Shown: positions 1 to 7,219 of the stretch, piece by piece | Position numbering within the stretch: the first letter of the stretch is position 1 | How the letters are laid out: each line of letters begins with the position of its first letter | Origin: Chloroflexota bacterium | GTDB taxonomy: Bacteria; Chloroflexota; Dehalococcoidia; Lucifugimonadales; UBA3495 | Direction: 5' to 3' | Assembly (NCBI GenBank): GCA_028873965.1 | Contig: JAPPMU010000061.1 | Coordinates: 951-64,950, forward strand | Length of the DNA stretch: 64,000 nt | Made by a program: the position numbers and the translations under genes | The notes under the pieces: generated by a model | What the model saw: only the letters and a program-made list of their open reading frames with translations | Databases searched by the model: none | Told to the model about the DNA's origin: nothing

Positions 1-137
1 CAGGGTCGCCACCTGCTCAGCGACCTCCACCGGATTCAGCAGCGGCAGCAGCAGGGATGAAGCGCCCTTCCGCGATGTGGTCCAGGGTCGCCACCTGCTC
101 AGCGACCTCCACCGGATTCAGCAGCGGCAGCAGCAGG
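1..137. repeat. 55-bp perfect direct repeat at the left edge
   Basis: Bases 1-55 recur exactly at 83-137; the next base differs between copies (56 is g, 138 is a). The offset of 82 bases is not a multiple of three, so the second copy breaks the reading frame of the gene it lies in. A repeat of exactly 55 bases at a sequence end matches a common assembler k-mer length, so an assembly-graph artefact is more likely than a biological duplication. Confidence 0.85.
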
Positions 138-364
138 ACCGAGGTGGCCAGCTTCATGTCGCCCGGCTCGGCGGCCAGCCGCGCCAGCACCGGCCAGGGC
201 TGGAAGTGCTGGAAGGGGTCGATCAGGTAGTGGTGGGCCCAGCAATAGATGTCGAACCCGGCGTCGCGGGAGGCCCGGAACTGCTCCAGGTGGTTCTGCC
301 ACTGCTGCTGATGGTCGATGCTGTCCCGCTGCACCACCTGCCCGACCTGATAACCAACTCGCAT
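1..364 (-). CDS. LLM-class (luciferase-like) flavin oxidoreductase, N-terminal part only
   Basis: The protein starts MRVGYQVGQVVQ at the ATG at 364, preceded by a GGTGAGG ribosome site. Residues about 75-103 carry the family signature around NPVEVAEQVATLDHIAEGRF, the motif where the TIM-barrel cofactor site forms in F420- or FMN-dependent luciferase-like enzymes. After that point the frame runs into the 55-bp edge repeat and gives a nonsense tail (alanines, then a stop). About two thirds of the normal 300-350 residues are missing. The family oxidises or reduces diverse organic substrates; the substrate is unknown. An upstream ATG at 463 is in frame but its extension looks non-coding. Confidence 0.75.
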
Positions 365-473
365 ATCCTCACCCCCTGACGCGGCCATGCGGTACCTGTC
401 CCTCCGGAAAGGACGGCTTGAACTTCTCCCAGATGAATAGTTGTTGGCAATCCTCATCTCCATCTTTGGCCTG

Positions 474-790: not shown

Positions 791-1684
791 CTAACCCCCA
801 ACGTGGCGGTACTTGATCAGCCGCTGGCCGGCGAGGTTCTGGTTCACGTAGATGTCGCCGTGGGAGTCGACCCAGACGGCGTGCGCCCCGTTGCCCCACC
901 CGGCGTCCGAGGGACTGCCCCAGCAGGCCAGCACGTTGCCCTCAATGTCCAGGATGGACATGAAACCGTCCAGTTCCGGCACGTACACCGCCAGGTCGTC
1001 GTCGATGTAGATGTCGCAGGGTCGCGCCAGGTCCGACCACTGCTCCAGGAAGTTGCCCTCGGAGTCGAAGATCTGAATGCGGTTGTTCTCGCGGTCGGCG
1101 ACGAACACCCGCCCGTCGGTGTGCACCCAGACCCCGTGGGGGACGTGGAACTCGCCGGGAGCAGTCTTCCCAGGCGCGCCCCAGGAGTCCACCAACTCGC
1201 CTTCAGGGGTGAACCGGTGCACCCGGGCGTTGCCGTAGCCGTCGGAGATGTACAGCAGGCCGTCCGGTGAAATGGCGATGTCGCTGGGGCTGTTGAAAGG
1301 GCCGGCCGCTCGGACCACCGGGTCGCTGTAGTTCCCCGACCAGCCGGTATCCGAGGGCTGGTCCCACTCGCCCATGGTCATCAGCAGGTTGCCCCTGGGG
1401 TCATACTTGAGGACCACGTGGCTGTTCTTGACCGGCAGGTAGAGGTTCTCATCGCCGTCGATGAACATCCCGTGGGCGTCGGTGAGCACGCCCTCACCCC
1501 AGGAGGCCAGATAGTTGCCGTCCCGGTCAAGGACGATCAGCGGGTGTTCGCCGCGGTTGAAGAGATACACCCGATCCTCGGAGTCGGTGACGATGGCCGT
1601 CTGCCCCAACTCCCAGCCCTCGGGCAGCTTCTCCCAATTCTCGACCTGCTCATAGGTGTACTTGCCACTGCCGACGGTTGCCAT
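791..1684 (-). CDS. NHL-repeat beta-propeller protein
   Basis: The protein has 297 residues from the ATG at 1684, which has a GGGGG ribosome site. It contains repeated blade motifs of the form FxxPxGVxVxxDGxVFVADxxNxRIQxF, seen for example around HVPHGVWVHTDGRVFVADRE. NHL propellers bind proteins, RNA or small molecules, and some are peptidyl-glycine lyase-like. There is no signal peptide from this start, so it is predicted to be cytoplasmic unless a further upstream start is used. A second NHL protein lies at 18477-19502. The function cannot be narrowed further. Confidence 0.8.
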   Translation of the reverse strand: MATVGSGKYTYEQVENWEKLPEGWELGQTAIVTDSEDRVYLFNRGEHPLIVLDRDGNYLASWGEGVLTDAHGMFIDGDENLYLPVKNSHVVLKYDPRGNLLMTMGEWDQPSDTGWSGNYSDPVVRAAGPFNSPSDIAISPDGLLYISDGYGNARVHRFTPEGELVDSWGAPGKTAPGEFHVPHGVWVHTDGRVFVADRENNRIQIFDSEGNFLEQWSDLARPCDIYIDDDLAVYVPELDGFMSILDIEGNVLACWGSPSDAGWGNGAHAVWVDSHGDIYVNQNLAGQRLIKYRHVGG

Positions 1685-1716
1685 ATCGTCCCCCTGTGCT
1701 GGATGTGAGTCGGTCG

Positions 1717-2169
1717 CTAGTTGGTTTGAGGTGGCCAAACACGGGTCGCGGAAAGGTCGCTCTCGTCCAACTCGTAGATTTCAACCCCGTCAGGGATAAA
1801 GTGCCTGTAGCTTCGCACGTAATACTCTACCAATGTCTCTGGCCTACGTTTGCCAACTTTTTCTGTCCTCGGCATAAACAGCATCTTCTTGAATGGACCT
1901 GGGGCAGCGATAAAGTACAACATCGCTTCATTGGCCGTGGCAACTTTCCCGCTTGGATTGTTGCCCACCTTAGTCCAACTATAGGCTTTGCATTCAACCA
2001 ACAAGGTATCGCTACCCCAATCGAATTTGTGGGATTTCTTCAGGCGACCGTTGATGCTGACCTCGACTTCGTAGTCGGGGTTGACATCGTAACCTTGCAT
2101 TCTCAGGTATTGCCCTACTCGTTTCTCGAAGGCGCGGCCTCTCCCTGGATTTTGGCTGTTAGTGGTCAT
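1717..2169 (-). CDS. PD-(D/E)XK nuclease-like protein
   Basis: The 150-residue protein has an N-terminal helical stretch (RAFEKRVGQYLRMQGYDV), a beta strand, then FDWGSDTLLVECKAYSW. The D-x(n)-E-C-K arrangement is the metal-binding core of the PD-(D/E)XK nuclease fold found in restriction and repair enzymes. No recognition domain or adjacent methyltransferase is visible, so it may be a solitary nuclease or a mobile-element remnant. The start at 2169 is close after the duplicated UGSC tail on the same strand. The fold is moderately supported; the target is unknown. Confidence 0.6.
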   Translation of the reverse strand: MTTNSQNPGRGRAFEKRVGQYLRMQGYDVNPDYEVEVSINGRLKKSHKFDWGSDTLLVECKAYSWTKVGNNPSGKVATANEAMLYFIAAPGPFKKMLFMPRTEKVGKRRPETLVEYYVRSYRHFIPDGVEIYELDESDLSATRVWPPQTN

Positions 2170-2224: not shown

Positions 2225-2356
2225 CTAATACGTCGTCAGCCTATCGATAACCACCTGCTCCAACTCCCCGGCGCGGATCGAGACCTGCTCCGGCGTGAGG
2301 CCGCCCAGGGGATGGGGAATGCCCAGCGGGTGGAAGTCGCCGCGGCCATAGCTCAT
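2225..2356 (-). pseudogene. Duplicated C-terminal fragment of the UGSC selenoprotein (43 codons)
   Basis: The frame begins with ATG-AGC-TAT and encodes GRGDFHPLGIPHPLGG... through ELEQVVIDRLTTY before a TAG. This is almost the same as the C-terminus of the UGSC protein at 2674-3231. The ATG overlaps the stop of the coiled-coil gene (ATGA), so it could be translated by coupling. About ten base changes in 119 give only a few amino-acid changes, so it diverged while still under protein-level selection. It lacks the UGSC active site and is best read as a gene-tail remnant. Confidence 0.7.
2229..2347. repeat. 119-bp direct repeat, copy A (copy B at 2678-2796)
   Basis: This segment matches 2678-2796 at a constant offset of 449 bases, with about ten mismatches. 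The two copies flank the small coiled-coil gene at 2353-2631. Both copies keep the UGSC C-terminal reading frame. The layout suits unequal recombination between two UGSC paralogues, or insertion of the coiled-coil gene with duplication of the tail. Confidence 0.85.
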
Positions 2357-2673: not shown

Positions 2674-3231
2674 TCAGTACGTCGTCAGCGTATCGATGAC
2701 CGCCTGCTCCAACTCGCCGGCGCGCACCGAGACCTGCTCGGGCGTCAGGCCACCCAGGGGATGGGGAATGCCCAGCGGGTGGAAGTCGCCGCGGCCGAAG
2801 GTGCGGGCGTGGCGGAAAGCCGAGTTCAAGAACGGGTCGGTGCAGAGTACCACCGTGGGGATGCCGAGGTTTTCCAGGGTCATTGCGTCGTGCACACTGC
2901 ACGCGGTGCAGGACCCTCAATCCGCAATCGCGGTGACCACGAAGTCGCACCGGTCGGAGAGCTGGTCGATGATCTCATCGGCCGCCGGCCGGGAATAGAC
3001 GAACTTGTCCACGGCGATGATGTCGCCCAGTTCCAGGTCCTTTGCCATCCGCTCCCCAATGTTCCGCAGCAGCAGATCGGCGTTGGCCTTGCGGTTGCCC
3101 AGGAAGCCGCCCACCTTGTCGTGCAGCGTGTCCAGCCGAGGGGCGGCCCGCCAGCGCGACGCCGCGTCCGGGTCAACGGGCAGGGCCAAACCGAGTTCCC
3201 GCATCCGTTCCTGGTAGTTCGTTACAGTCAT
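2674..3231 (-). CDS. UGSC-family selenoprotein, read through an in-frame UGA
   Basis: The frame from the ATG at 3231 runs 104 codons to ...FVVTAIAD, meets TGA at 2919-2917, then continues without break as GSCTACSVHDAMTLEN to a TAG at 2674. Reading the TGA as selenocysteine gives 185 residues with a U-G-S-C motif at 105-108 and a further Cys at 111. This is the hallmark of the UGSC (seleno)protein family, whose chemistry is presumed redox but is not established. A hairpin matching bacterial SECIS geometry follows the UGA (2889-2903). The ribosome site is GAGGTAA. Conventional gene calling would split this into two fragments (2917-3231 and 2674-2895). The 343-aa gene upstream is its likely partner. 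Confidence 0.85.
2889..2903 (-). promoter_or_regulatory. Candidate bacterial SECIS hairpin
   Basis: On the coding (minus) strand the sequence CGTGCA-GTG-TGCACG forms a perfect 6-bp stem with a GTG triloop. Nineteen bases separate the UGA from the loop, and the loop begins with G. Bacterial SECIS elements are small stem-loops with a guanine at the start of the apical loop, roughly 16-37 bases after the UGA, so both features fit. A competing stem (CTGCAC-CGC-GTGCAG) lies slightly nearer to the UGA. Confidence 0.65.
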
Positions 3232-3278
3232 TGTTACCTCTACTATTCGCTGAATTGTTTAGTCATTTTGACAATACA

Positions 3279-3376
3279 CCGTCGTTCCTGCGAAAGCAGG
3301 AACCCAGAAAAGCCCTGAGAGCAAAACGTTGGCTTTATTTTTACTCTCTGGATTCCCGCTTTCGCGGGAATGACGG
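3279..3376. repeat. Palindromic doublet element, family A copy 1
   Basis: The element begins CCGTCGTTCCTGCGAAAGC and ends GCTTTCGCGGGAATGACGG. Each arm is itself a hairpin and together they form a larger inverted repeat. Its left arm is identical for about 30 bases to the copy at 50454. It lies between the 343-aa gene and the UGSC gene, splitting what is probably one transcription unit. It resembles REP/MITE-type intergenic repeats. Confidence 0.85.
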
Positions 3377-3416: not shown

Positions 3417-4448
3417 TCAGCGTTCGATTTTTCGCGTGACTCGGCGCGAGCCCCAGCCGGGCAGGTAGGCCGAGTGAGGGCCGCCGGCGCCGCCGGCGAC
3501 GAAAATGTTGATGCGGTCCGGGGCGCGCACCACCGGCACCATCTGGTCGTCGTCGTCAGCGTCGATGTACCTGGGCCAGAAGTGGCCGCGGCGGGAGTCG
3601 CCCTGGGGCGGACCGCCCTGGCGGAGTTTCCGCACCGGCTTGCGGGCGTGCTCGTAGAGAAACTGGCGGATGTCCCGCTTGTTCCAGCCGTCCCGGTGGA
3701 GGAACTTGGCGTGCTCCGGGCCAATGACCACCATGGTGTCGCCCATGACGTACATCTGGACGTTGCCCAGGGTGCACATAGTGTCGGCCAGCACCGTCAG
3801 GAAGTTCCGGGAGTGGGAGGCGTGGTACATGATGTTGTGCGGTGCCTCCGCCGGGAACACCGACACCGTGCTGTCGGTGGGGGCGAAGCCCAGCTCCACG
3901 TGCATCGGCTCCCAGGGGTTGGCGTCCTCGTCCTCGGCGACGCAGTAGGTGTAGGCGCCGGGATGGCCGAAGGTGGCCTTGTTGGTCTCGCCCGGTATGG
4001 CGCCGCCCAGGTTCAGCAGGATCAGCTTCACCGCGCGGCCGATGGTGGCGTTGGCCCGCCAACCGGAGCCGAAGCAGTTGTACCCGCCGTTGATGTCCAG
4101 TTCCTTGACGATGGGGCCGTTGACGATGAGCAGCGGCGTGTGGATGCCGGTGGAGCACATCACGCCCCGCAGGTTGAACCGCTCGTCCATCATCGCTTCC
4201 AGGGCGGTGATGATTACCGGCATGTGCTCCGGCAGGCAGCCGGCCATGACCGCGTTGACCGCGACGCGCTCGATGGTGGCCCGCCCGCCCAGGGGCGGCA
4301 GTTCCGCGATGAGTTCGTCACCGCCCCGGCCCGTGCTCTCCACGAACTTGCGGACTAGGGGTTCGGACGGCGGCACCACCGGCAGGCCGTCGGTCCATCC
4401 GGTCTCAAACATCAATTCGATGGCATCAGCAACGTCGGTAGCAAGCAT
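3417..4448 (-). CDS. UGSC-associated protein, 343 aa
   Basis: The N-terminus contains FETGWTDGLPVVPPSE, followed by a conserved-looking core with MAGCLPEHMPVII, CSTGIHTPLLIVNGP and NGGYNCFGSGWRANATIGRA. It ends near VAGGAGGPHSAYLPGWGS. From memory, proteins with the DGLPVVPP motif occur beside or fused to UGSC domains, and here the UGSC gene follows on the same strand. Four cysteines lie in short conserved-looking blocks, which would suit a thiol/selenol partner, but no reaction is established. No signal peptide or membrane segment is seen. The start ATG at 4448 has only a weak ribosome site. Confidence 0.7.
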   Translation of the reverse strand: MLATDVADAIELMFETGWTDGLPVVPPSEPLVRKFVESTGRGGDELIAELPPLGGRATIERVAVNAVMAGCLPEHMPVIITALEAMMDERFNLRGVMCSTGIHTPLLIVNGPIVKELDINGGYNCFGSGWRANATIGRAVKLILLNLGGAIPGETNKATFGHPGAYTYCVAEDEDANPWEPMHVELGFAPTDSTVSVFPAEAPHNIMYHASHSRNFLTVLADTMCTLGNVQMYVMGDTMVVIGPEHAKFLHRDGWNKRDIRQFLYEHARKPVRKLRQGGPPQGDSRRGHFWPRYIDADDDDQMVPVVRAPDRINIFVAGGAGGPHSAYLPGWGSRRVTRKIER

Positions 4449-4560: not shown

Positions 4561-6345
4561 TCACGCTGATAGGTGTCGGCCCGGACGCAGTTCGCCGGCG
4601 GCTCGCGTCAGGGCGGCCCCGTACAGGAAAATCAGGCCGGCCAGGAACGACCACATCAACAGGACCACGAAGGCGGCCACCGGCCCATAGATGACGCTCC
4701 GCTGCGTGGCCATGCCGGAGAACCAGAAAAACAGGTGCTTGCCGAACTCGAACAGGAACATCGCCACCAGGCCGCCGTAGGCGGCGTCTCTCCAGTGAAC
4801 CGGAACGTTGGGCATATGGCGGTACACGGTCGTGAACAGCAATGCGGTAATCAGCGCCGGCACCAACGTTGCCAGCGCGCCCATCAGCCATAGCAGATAT
4901 CCAGCGCCGGAGCCCAGCCAGTCGGTGAGCGCGGATTGAAATCCCAACCCTATCTGAAATAGCGCGGTGACCATCATCGACAGGGAAAACAAAACTACCA
5001 TGCTGGTGGCAACGACCACCTCTGACAAAGTTGTCCCGAGCACTCCACGAGTATTCACGCCGAATAGCCGGTTCACCGCGCGACCGGCGGCCATGAACAA
5101 ACCACTGGCGCCGATCAGGGCGGCTATCAAGGCAACCAGGCCCACGGCCAGCGTACCCTTGAACAGGTGTTGAACTGCTTCGCTCAGCAGATCGGCCGAA
5201 GCCGGGAAATACTGTGCGACGAGAGCAGAGACTCCCGCTCCCACCACCTCAGGATCTGCAAACAACGCAACCGCCATGGCCACCAACGCCATCAGCGGGA
5301 AGAAGGACATCACGGTGAAGTACGCCAATGACGCCGCCATGTCGATTCCGCCCTCCCGAATGAGCGTCCGCGCCGCCCGATAAATCGCCCGCCCCCGCCA
5401 TGCCGCCCTTCCCCGGGGCAGTTCTCTCGCCAAACGCTCGCTCAGCTGGGTGGCTTGAAAGGTCAGTTCGGGAACCGCGTGCCCTGTCGGTATCGAGAGT
5501 CTCATCAACACTGACCGGCGCGCGTGATCCCCGTGCGATTGACCCAGGTCATAGGCGGCCGCGACTGCGCCCGTCGCCGTTGCCACTACTACCTCCTCGT
5601 CCACTTCCGAGTTTTCCGCAACTTCAATGAGGGCCGCATCCACCGCATGCTCGGCCATGTTGGCAATGTCATCCGACACCGTTTCCGTGTTAGCGCCGTG
5701 AGCGATCATTGCATAGGTCGCCGCTTCCGTAGCGGCAACCACGTCGCCATCGGCAGCAGCCACTCCCGAAACCACTCCACCCACGGCGGCACGGACGGCG
5801 TCAGCCGTATCGGCGCCGGCTTCCGTCATGGCTTCTACCGCCCCCGCAACTGCCGACGCGGCGGCCCGTTCGCTGTCGATGCCCACGGATACCGCCCCTA
5901 CTATGGCGCCTTCGATTGCGCCTCGCCCGACCTCGGCGGCGTCGGACACGCTACTGCTGGAACTGTGTATCGCGCCAACCACCATATCCCTGACTGCCGG
6001 AGCGGTAATCGAAACCACCTGGTTGGTTCCTTCTATGACACCGATCATGGTGTCCCGAACCATGGAGCCGGCCTCACCCCCTACCTCTTCAATGGCTTGA
6101 ACTGCCCCGGCGACAGCATCCCTGCCCAGATGGGCTGCGCCGCCACCCACGTACCTCGCTCCGCTGACCGCGGAGCGGGCTGCCGAACGCAGCGCGAATC
6201 GGGGGATTCCGCTGCCGCGGGACCCGATCCTGCGGATCATCGTGTTCCGCACCGACCGGACCGTTCCCGACTGTTGATTGGTTTCGTGATCCATGACGCT
6301 TGCAACATGTTTTGAGCCGCGCCCTTTGTCAGCGGCGCGGCCCAT
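4561..6345 (-). CDS. YihY/BrkB-type membrane protein fused to an Ala/Gly-rich repeat domain
   Basis: Residues about 320-594 match the YihY/BrkB (UPF0761) family: RAARTLIREGGIDMAASLAY, then about six hydrophobic segments and a FLYGAALTRA end. Residues about 60-270 are Ala/Gly/Val-rich repeats of the type GAIEGAIVGAVSVG, predicted as amphipathic helix, which are not part of the standard family. The same repeat type makes up the whole of the gene just upstream (6371-7219). The start is uncertain: ATG at 6345 has GGGG five bases upstream, while ATG at 6294 lacks a clear ribosome site. The family role is unknown; it is sometimes mis-annotated as ribonuclease BN. Confidence 0.8.
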   Translation of the reverse strand: MGRAADKGRGSKHVASVMDHETNQQSGTVRSVRNTMIRRIGSRGSGIPRFALRSAARSAVSGARYVGGGAAHLGRDAVAGAVQAIEEVGGEAGSMVRDTMIGVIEGTNQVVSITAPAVRDMVVGAIHSSSSSVSDAAEVGRGAIEGAIVGAVSVGIDSERAAASAVAGAVEAMTEAGADTADAVRAAVGGVVSGVAAADGDVVAATEAATYAMIAHGANTETVSDDIANMAEHAVDAALIEVAENSEVDEEVVVATATGAVAAAYDLGQSHGDHARRSVLMRLSIPTGHAVPELTFQATQLSERLARELPRGRAAWRGRAIYRAARTLIREGGIDMAASLAYFTVMSFFPLMALVAMAVALFADPEVVGAGVSALVAQYFPASADLLSEAVQHLFKGTLAVGLVALIAALIGASGLFMAAGRAVNRLFGVNTRGVLGTTLSEVVVATSMVVLFSLSMMVTALFQIGLGFQSALTDWLGSGAGYLLWLMGALATLVPALITALLFTTVYRHMPNVPVHWRDAAYGGLVAMFLFEFGKHLFFWFSGMATQRSVIYGPVAAFVVLLMWSFLAGLIFLYGAALTRAAGELRPGRHLSA

Positions 6346-6370
6346 TCGTACCCCAAACAGGAGTCGACGG

Positions 6371-7219
6371 CTAGGTATTGTTCCGCTCGTTGTTGTTCCC
6401 CGACACGGCGGTATCGGCGACCACGCGAACGCCGTTGATTGTGCCGGTCGCCGCGTTCCGCACCGCGTCACCGGCGGCGTCGCTGACGTCGTAGGCGGCC
6501 TCAATGGCACCCCGGGCCGCGGCCGCCGCGGTTTCCTCCACGTTCTGACCCGTCGCGCGCGCCGCGTCGATGGCTCCGTTGACCGCGGACACGGCCACTT
6601 GGGCCACGTCCTCACCCGTTTGGGCCGCGTTGCTGACCAGTTGGCGAGCGGTGGCGGCAGTCGCTACAGTAACCACTTCAGCCGATCCCGACAGCGCGGT
6701 AACCACTCCGGCCACGGTATCGCGGGCTGCGTCGGTGATTGAGCCGCCGATTTCCCTGGTACCATCAATGGCGCCCCGAGTAACCTGAACGACTGAATCC
6801 TCGGTGGCAAGGCCCACAGCCGCGCTGCCGCGGATCGCGCCCTCCACGGCCTGTTGTGTGGCAGTACCCAATTCAGATCCCACGTCGCTGGAACCGCGGA
6901 TCGCCCCCACCACTACATCGTGCAACATAGTTGTGGTGGCAGTCCCAACCATGCCGACGCCTTGGATGACGCCGATAGTGGAGTCTCTGACCAGTGTCCC
7001 GGCAGCTCCGCCCACGTTGCCAGCAGCGTGAATAGTGCCTACGATGGCATCCTGGGCCAGGTGCCCGGCTTCGCCACCCACCGACCTGGCGCTGCGCAGC
7101 GTATTCACCGTGGTATCCCGAACGGTATCGATTGCAGCGTTGCCCACGCGACCGGTACCTTCAAGGGTGCCGGTCAAGGCATCGCGCATCGCGCTGCCAA
7201 TTCTTCCGAGAATCGCCAT
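6371..7219 (-). CDS. Ala/Gly-rich repeat protein, 282 aa
   Basis: The protein consists of about eight degenerate repeats of 30-37 residues, for example GNVGGAAGTLVRDSTIGVIQ and GMVGTATTTMLHDVVVGAI. They share a pattern (G-x-VG-x(n)-A-D-x(2)-VG-x-I). It has no cysteine and no signal peptide, and ends in a Gly/Asn-rich tail. The ATG at 7219 follows GGAGGAG. The downstream YihY fusion carries the same repeats, so the two are paralogous and probably act together, perhaps at the membrane surface. I do not recognise a named family; LEA-like or phasin-like amphipathic helices are structural analogies only. Confidence 0.75.
   Translation of the reverse strand: MAILGRIGSAMRDALTGTLEGTGRVGNAAIDTVRDTTVNTLRSARSVGGEAGHLAQDAIVGTIHAAGNVGGAAGTLVRDSTIGVIQGVGMVGTATTTMLHDVVVGAIRGSSDVGSELGTATQQAVEGAIRGSAAVGLATEDSVVQVTRGAIDGTREIGGSITDAARDTVAGVVTALSGSAEVVTVATAATARQLVSNAAQTGEDVAQVAVSAVNGAIDAARATGQNVEETAAAAARGAIEAAYDVSDAAGDAVRNAATGTINGVRVVADTAVSGNNNERNNT

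Follow-up and report, generated by a model that had tools for sequence, protein, structure and literature searches.

The 64,000-nucleotide stretch analyzed here (the window) belongs to a SAR202-type Chloroflexota bacterium, and its minus strand carries, at 2674-3231, a reading frame with a TGA in its middle. Two questions are raised by this locus: whether the TGA ends a protein or is read as selenocysteine (Sec), and with which partner and in which chemistry the product might act. Our results argue that the gene very probably encodes a selenoprotein of the UGSC family, its UGA being read as Sec, as a first-pass annotation had proposed; the coding similarity past the TGA, the Sec machinery of the genome and a conserved hairpin support this reading (Table 1).

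Reading frame and family membership

The frame starts with ATG, reaches the TGA at codon 105 in the context ...VTAIAD-U-GSCTACSVHDAM... and continues for 80 codons to its stop, giving U105-G-S-C108, the UGSC motif with Sec. The first-pass annotation had placed the gene and the motif correctly, while the final TAG that it gave was wrong: the stop codon at 2674-2676 is TGA, and the same gene uses TGA once as a sense codon and once as a stop.

The whole frame scored 151 bits against Pfam PF24696 (UGSC; gathering score 25) and 129 bits against NCBIfam NF041046 (curated equivalog cut-off 125), with the similarity found on both sides of the TGA when the UGA was read through. The two halves of the gene, scanned separately, scored 49.7 and 80.3 bits to PF24696 (cut-off 25 bits), and since each half alone passes, the frame is more than a chance opening. 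It had been predicted that ordinary gene calling would split the gene at the UGA into two unrelated hypothetical proteins; such a split is to be expected, but the pieces would not look unrelated, as each alone matches PF24696. At 185 residues the protein stands alone, carries the family motif with Sec, lies above both cut-offs and shows no difference that removes it from the family (NF041046 / PF24696), and it is a new member of this already known family. With 255 genes in table 2 of PMC2398784, UGSC ranks among the larger families of selenoproteins in aquatic metagenomes, and it is counted in PMC13188914 among the families with largely uncharacterised functions.

Table 1. Positions of the discussed features, in the window or in the locus named
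Feature	Position	Strand	Description
UGSC-family selenoprotein gene (very probable)	2674..3231	-	185 residues, ends in TGA; frame, Pfam and NCBIfam matches
In-frame TGA, very probably selenocysteine, codon 105	2917..2919	-	kept in 15/15 related loci, one in each of the seven copies of the genome
Bacterial SECIS hairpin	2872..2919	-	6-bp upper stem, GUG loop, 19 nt after UGA; fold and covariation
Partner gene, 343 residues	3417..4448	-	no Pfam/NCBIfam family; a paralogue near each of the seven UGSC genes in the source genome
NHL-repeat beta-propeller gene	791..1738	-	downstream, in conserved block; module role only putative
FlK-type genes	L077:8776-9171, L163:8486-8893		close after UGSC

Conservation of the TGA codon

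Fifteen related loci were taken from named genomes labelled Dehalococcoidia, Chloroflexi or Chloroflexota (one of them SAR202 cluster bacterium bin87), with 59-95% identity in the best segment. All of them keep the TGA, and the frame is open on both sides of it in 14. The first-pass annotation had held that close relatives lacking coding similarity after the UGA would speak against a selenoprotein; the opposite was found, the similarity continuing past the UGA (aligned for 12 of the 15 loci).

Seven UGSC genes were found in the source genome, and each contains a single in-frame TGA. UGSC was found in 47 of the 60 genomes searched (source genome included), with one TGA in every match among the matches listed, and the 36 same-family genomes searched have 2 to 13 UGSC matches per genome. 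In a census of the phylum, 32 of 301 genomes have UGSC (source genome included) and 72 of the 75 matches contain one TGA; one of the remaining matches is a fragment ending before the TGA site. The Sec column (Sec written as C) and the Cys108 column are invariant in 51 of 51 aligned UGSC proteins.

The TGA might otherwise really end the protein, either in a gene that is decaying to a pseudogene or through an error of sequencing. This explanation could draw on one ortholog, L075, which keeps the TGA but lacks about 20 bases just after it, so that its frame is broken, and on a partial duplicate of the UGSC 3' end in the window. It is contradicted by the TGA and frame kept in 14 of 15 related loci, with the frame after the TGA conserved, and by the recurrence of the TGA in the seven genes of the genome and across the phylum census; with a complete Sec machinery in addition, we regard a pseudogene or an error as highly improbable.

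Selenocysteine machinery

The source genome (3.88 Mb, 70 contigs) is 96.9% complete with 7.3% contamination, so that some foreign contigs are possible. We detected one match over the cut-off for each component: tRNA-Sec (66.4 bits versus 47; called tRNA-SeC with anticodon TCA by ARAGORN), selB (356.9 versus 242.25), selA (542.2 versus 267.9) and selD (377.6 versus 125). All four members of the set taken as the machinery of a bacterium with selenoproteins are in the genome, the reverse of the missing machinery that the first-pass annotation had named as a refutation. Matches below the cut-offs are taken to be other tRNAs and related enzymes; weak matches were also seen in the 14 control genomes (tRNA-Sec 14, selB 14, selA 4, selD 14), where matches over the cut-offs were found in five (tRNA-Sec), two (selB), one (selA) and two (selD) genomes. 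The host selD itself carries an in-frame TGA, in CAG-U-AAK, at a position known for a catalytic Sec or Cys.

The genome-wide use of TGA for an ordinary amino acid (Trp or Gly) is scarcely credible, and no support for it was found. It is contradicted by the UGSC gene and the neighbouring gene at 3417-4448, which both end in TGA, in agreement with the earlier view that TGA is not reassigned here, and it is opposed by the presence of tRNA-Sec with anticodon TCA and of selA, selB and selD.

SECIS hairpin

After the UGA lies a hairpin of the bacterial selenocysteine insertion sequence (SECIS) type. The bacterial SECIS model described in PMC13188914 has a loop of 3-9 nucleotides (nt), an upper stem of 4-16 base pairs (bp), a G among the first two loop positions, a distance of 16-37 nt from the UGA and an energy of -7.5 kcal/mol or lower, and the hairpin falls within that description (GUG loop, 6 bp, 19 nt, -20.7 kcal/mol). 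In 15 DNA sequences (the window and 14 loci, L075 being left out), no variation was seen in the 20 alignment columns that cover the stem, even at synonymous sites. Compared with codons for the same residues in other parts of the gene, codons 107-118 showed higher synonymous conservation in all except 20 of 20,000 resamplings; among ten-codon segments, 109-118 ranked best with 71-80 close behind, and because codons 71-80 come so close this test is supportive, not decisive.

Covariation was analyzed in 69 distinct sequences out of 123 segments, many of which were one locus fetched twice. The six upper-stem pairs are paired in 410 of 414 cells, while a seventh pair further down (16-32), outside the stem, is held in only 28 of 69 sequences. 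The Cys111 codon is altered in 14 of the 69: five have Ala in place of both Cys111 and His114, with both bases replaced in two adjacent pairs and the pairing retained, and seven have Trp in place of Cys111, with the opposite base changed along. The share of paired cells, seventh pair included, was 0.91, compared with 0.11-0.70 when the partners were slid by 1 to 3 bases; the value of 0.70 belongs to the slide of -2 and is suspected to be due to palindromic sequence. These changes suggest that Cys111 and His114 owe their conservation at least in part to a constraint on the RNA, a warning that the hairpin, and not catalysis, may partly explain why both residues are kept. Ranked by energy against other stretches of the same genes, the hairpins had a median rank of 0.27 (n=51) with 8 of 51 in the best tenth, a weak signal gene by gene; the covariation of the stem is the better SECIS evidence.

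Some observations weigh against the Sec reading. Besides the broken frame of L075, two long UGSC matches of the phylum census (G338, G337) have no TGA. The 48 nt from the UGA (z -2.36, with 5 of 200 shuffles folding as well) form a hairpin only moderately more stable than the shuffled sequences, and the value declines to z -1.33 for a 67-nt stretch around the hairpin and to z -0.67 for a 55-nt stretch starting after the UGA. In the reading that we prefer, SelB with selenocysteyl-tRNA would read the UGA at codon 105, which is predicted to be read through because the SECIS hairpin follows it.

Partner gene

The gene next to the UGSC gene encodes a protein without a Pfam or NCBIfam match. When 29 members of this partner group were searched against Pfam and NCBIfam at E up to 1, scattered weak matches were obtained, none shared by more than 3 of 29 (best E 0.002), and a scan of viral contigs for the partner gave nothing. 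The structure model of the partner was too poor to use (predicted local distance difference test, pLDDT, 58.6), and its best Foldseek match (E 0.62) was not used.

Partner paralogues (33-43% identity) accompany the six remaining UGSC genes of the source genome, on the same strand and within 1 kb, like the gene in the window. Six of the seven copies have the partner as a separate gene nearby, and at C39:103563-105209 UGSC and partner lie in one open frame. Across the 301 genomes, the partner is present in 32, UGSC in 32 and both in 31 (Fisher p 6e-40, ignoring kinship), the two censuses covering, to judge by the genome handles listed, an identical set; G241 alone has the partner without UGSC and G404 alone UGSC without the partner. 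A same-strand partner lies within 3 kb of 67 of the 75 UGSC matches of the census; seven of the eight partnerless ones are in G300 and G089, where the partner search scored seven candidates, its maximum, and the eighth is close to the start of a contig (323 bases). Among 48 UGSC genes in 47 larger loci (the seven of the source genome and forty hand-picked from the lists of the 60-genome search and the phylum census), 46 have such a partner within 3 kb, with L163 and L170 as exceptions. The pairing is near-constant, not absolute, and UGSC and its partner are likely to be functionally paired.

A fusion of UGSC to one conserved domain, Unknown_1, is described in PMC2398784 (Zhang and Gladyshev 2008). 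It resembles the single frame at C39, in contrast to the separate partner genes that prevail in the source genome, and by this analogy the partner may be Unknown_1.

Likeness to glycine reductase GrdB

The UGSC protein gave NCBIfam matches far below the cut-off to sarcosine reductase GrdF (E 1.9e-4) and glycine reductase GrdB (E 3.3e-4). Ten GrdB-type loci were taken from other genomes of the class and eight were used, four full-length GrdB and four stand-alone, with the TGA in the same alignment column in 8 of 8. In the hhalign comparison of 51 UGSC rows with these 8 rows, the probability was 93.8% (E 1.8e-7) with Sec on Sec; it was 87.0% against the four full-length GrdB and 68.9% against the four stand-alone proteins (L102-L105), the Sec columns being aligned in both cases, and 0.1-0.5% against control templates (one reversed, three column-shuffled). 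The likeness to GrdB (PF07355) concerns its Sec-bearing C-terminal half only, and the N-terminal domain of GrdB is absent from the 185-residue UGSC. The stand-alone proteins L102-L105, which we read as PrdB-like, share with UGSC the stand-alone form and the Sec in the aligned column; they differ in the motif (UPxC or USGC versus UGSC), and their profile match is weaker than that of UGSC and GrdB. We found no printed statement linking UGSC to GrdB in the parts of the literature covered, which is not proof that none exists.

The source genome also has a stand-alone gene akin to L102-L105, at C8:9715-10128 (L174:716-1129). The model behind its GrdB-C-like match ends before the Sec codon; the very next codon is TGA, the open frame goes on with PLC, and the gene is probably a further selenoprotein of a second kind.

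Fold and the thioredoxin-like alternative

UGSC is called thioredoxin (Trx)-like in PMC2398784 and PMC13188914. In the AlphaFold model, based on 13 rows, helices alternate with strands and the Sec stands directly before helix 106-121. The weak Foldseek matches (50 listed of 1378) include, by their titles, Rossmann- and flavodoxin-like folds. Searches of solved structures with the partner, UGSC and GrdB gave as the best match a designed protein (E 0.0016 over 48 residues), which was taken as chance.

The gene product could be a selenoprotein with a thioredoxin-like redox role, the UxxC pair acting as a selenenylsulfide/disulfide switch, a role proposed in the literature. The listing of UGSC among proteins of Trx-like fold in PMC13188914 is consistent with this role, as is the invariance of the Sec and Cys108 columns in all 51 rows; the profile similarity to GrdB with aligned Sec columns argues against it, as does the absence of thioredoxin among the 50 Foldseek matches listed, obtained with a model of medium confidence. 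We consider the switch rather doubtful.

Neighbourhood of the UGSC genes

DNA similarity in the 15 orthologous loci extends to the partner in 15, to the NHL propeller gene in 14 and to a luciferase-like gene in 11, L062 and L065 ending early. Among the 47 larger loci, a short-chain-dehydrogenase cluster was found in 19, an NHL-propeller cluster in 11 and a gene of the FlK type (fluoroacetyl-CoA thioesterase family) close after UGSC in four, the Pfam assignment being checked for two, three and two members, respectively; these counts come from UGSC loci only and serve as leads. The neighbours suggest catabolism of small organic compounds.

Downstream of the UGSC gene, 2229-2347 (minus strand) is a partial copy of its 3' end (92% over 119 bases), and an open reading frame (ORF) of 92 residues (2353-2631) lies between gene and copy. 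In L064, L068, L069, L072 and L076 about 50 bases separate UGSC from the start of the similarity to the NHL gene, which makes the stretch with the partial copy look like an insertion. A PADLOC search with the two small ORFs beside the UGSC gene gave nothing at E 0.1. Between the partner and UGSC, a palindromic repeat (CGTCGTTCCTGCGAAAGCAGG ... CCCGCTTTCGCGGGAATGACGG) occupies 3276-3376, and related copies are found at other places in L072 and L075.

The luciferase-like gene at 1-463 (minus strand) has an early end at position 17. In several relatives 55-374 aligns as one piece and 1-55 aligns inside that piece, which may point to a tandem repeat or to an error of the assembly. At 4561-7219 (minus strand), a membrane protein of the BrkB family whose N-terminal part is long adjoins a 282-residue protein, and both contain many repeats that we read as VRDTxxGVIxG-like.

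Discussion

Taken together, the profile similarity to GrdB and the near-constant partner lead us to infer a GrdB-like enzyme of two parts that works through a selenol. Sec105, together with Cys108, would supply the selenol as the nucleophile of a GrdB-like domain, and the protein encoded by the adjacent partner gene would be the second part. The likeliest chemistry may be that the selenol attacks an activated carbon in a small organic substrate, as GrdB presumably does with glycine; this is preferred over thioredoxin-like disulfide exchange. Chemistry of the GrdB kind is a tentative proposal here, possible on the strength of the aligned profiles.

A number of results stand on the other side of this proposal. 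The GrdB alignment is small (8 rows), the UGSC model has medium confidence (pLDDT 68.4, predicted template modelling score 0.67), and Foldseek found nothing for it at E 1e-3 or better. No profile relation of the partner to GrdE or GrdB was detected (probability 0.1-0.2%). GrdE and GrdA gave 0 matches each in the source genome at 96.9% completeness; both were recovered in this way from four of four other genomes. Because neither was found, the classical glycine reductase cycle is unlikely. The UGSC system is not glycine reductase and would at most act like its selenol half.

In a wider form, which we put forward as speculative and doubtful, UGSC and its partner would be a widespread two-part selenoenzyme built on the Sec half of GrdB, without GrdA or GrdE, and multiplied in SAR202-type bacteria to act on a variety of organic compounds, for example through cleavage of bonds adjacent to a carbonyl group. 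The interest of the locus lies in the surroundings of a gene of a known family, namely the partner and the link to GrdB, which would provide a concrete pair and a reaction type for the function of UGSC. The company of the partner gene may help to show what the UGSC family does.
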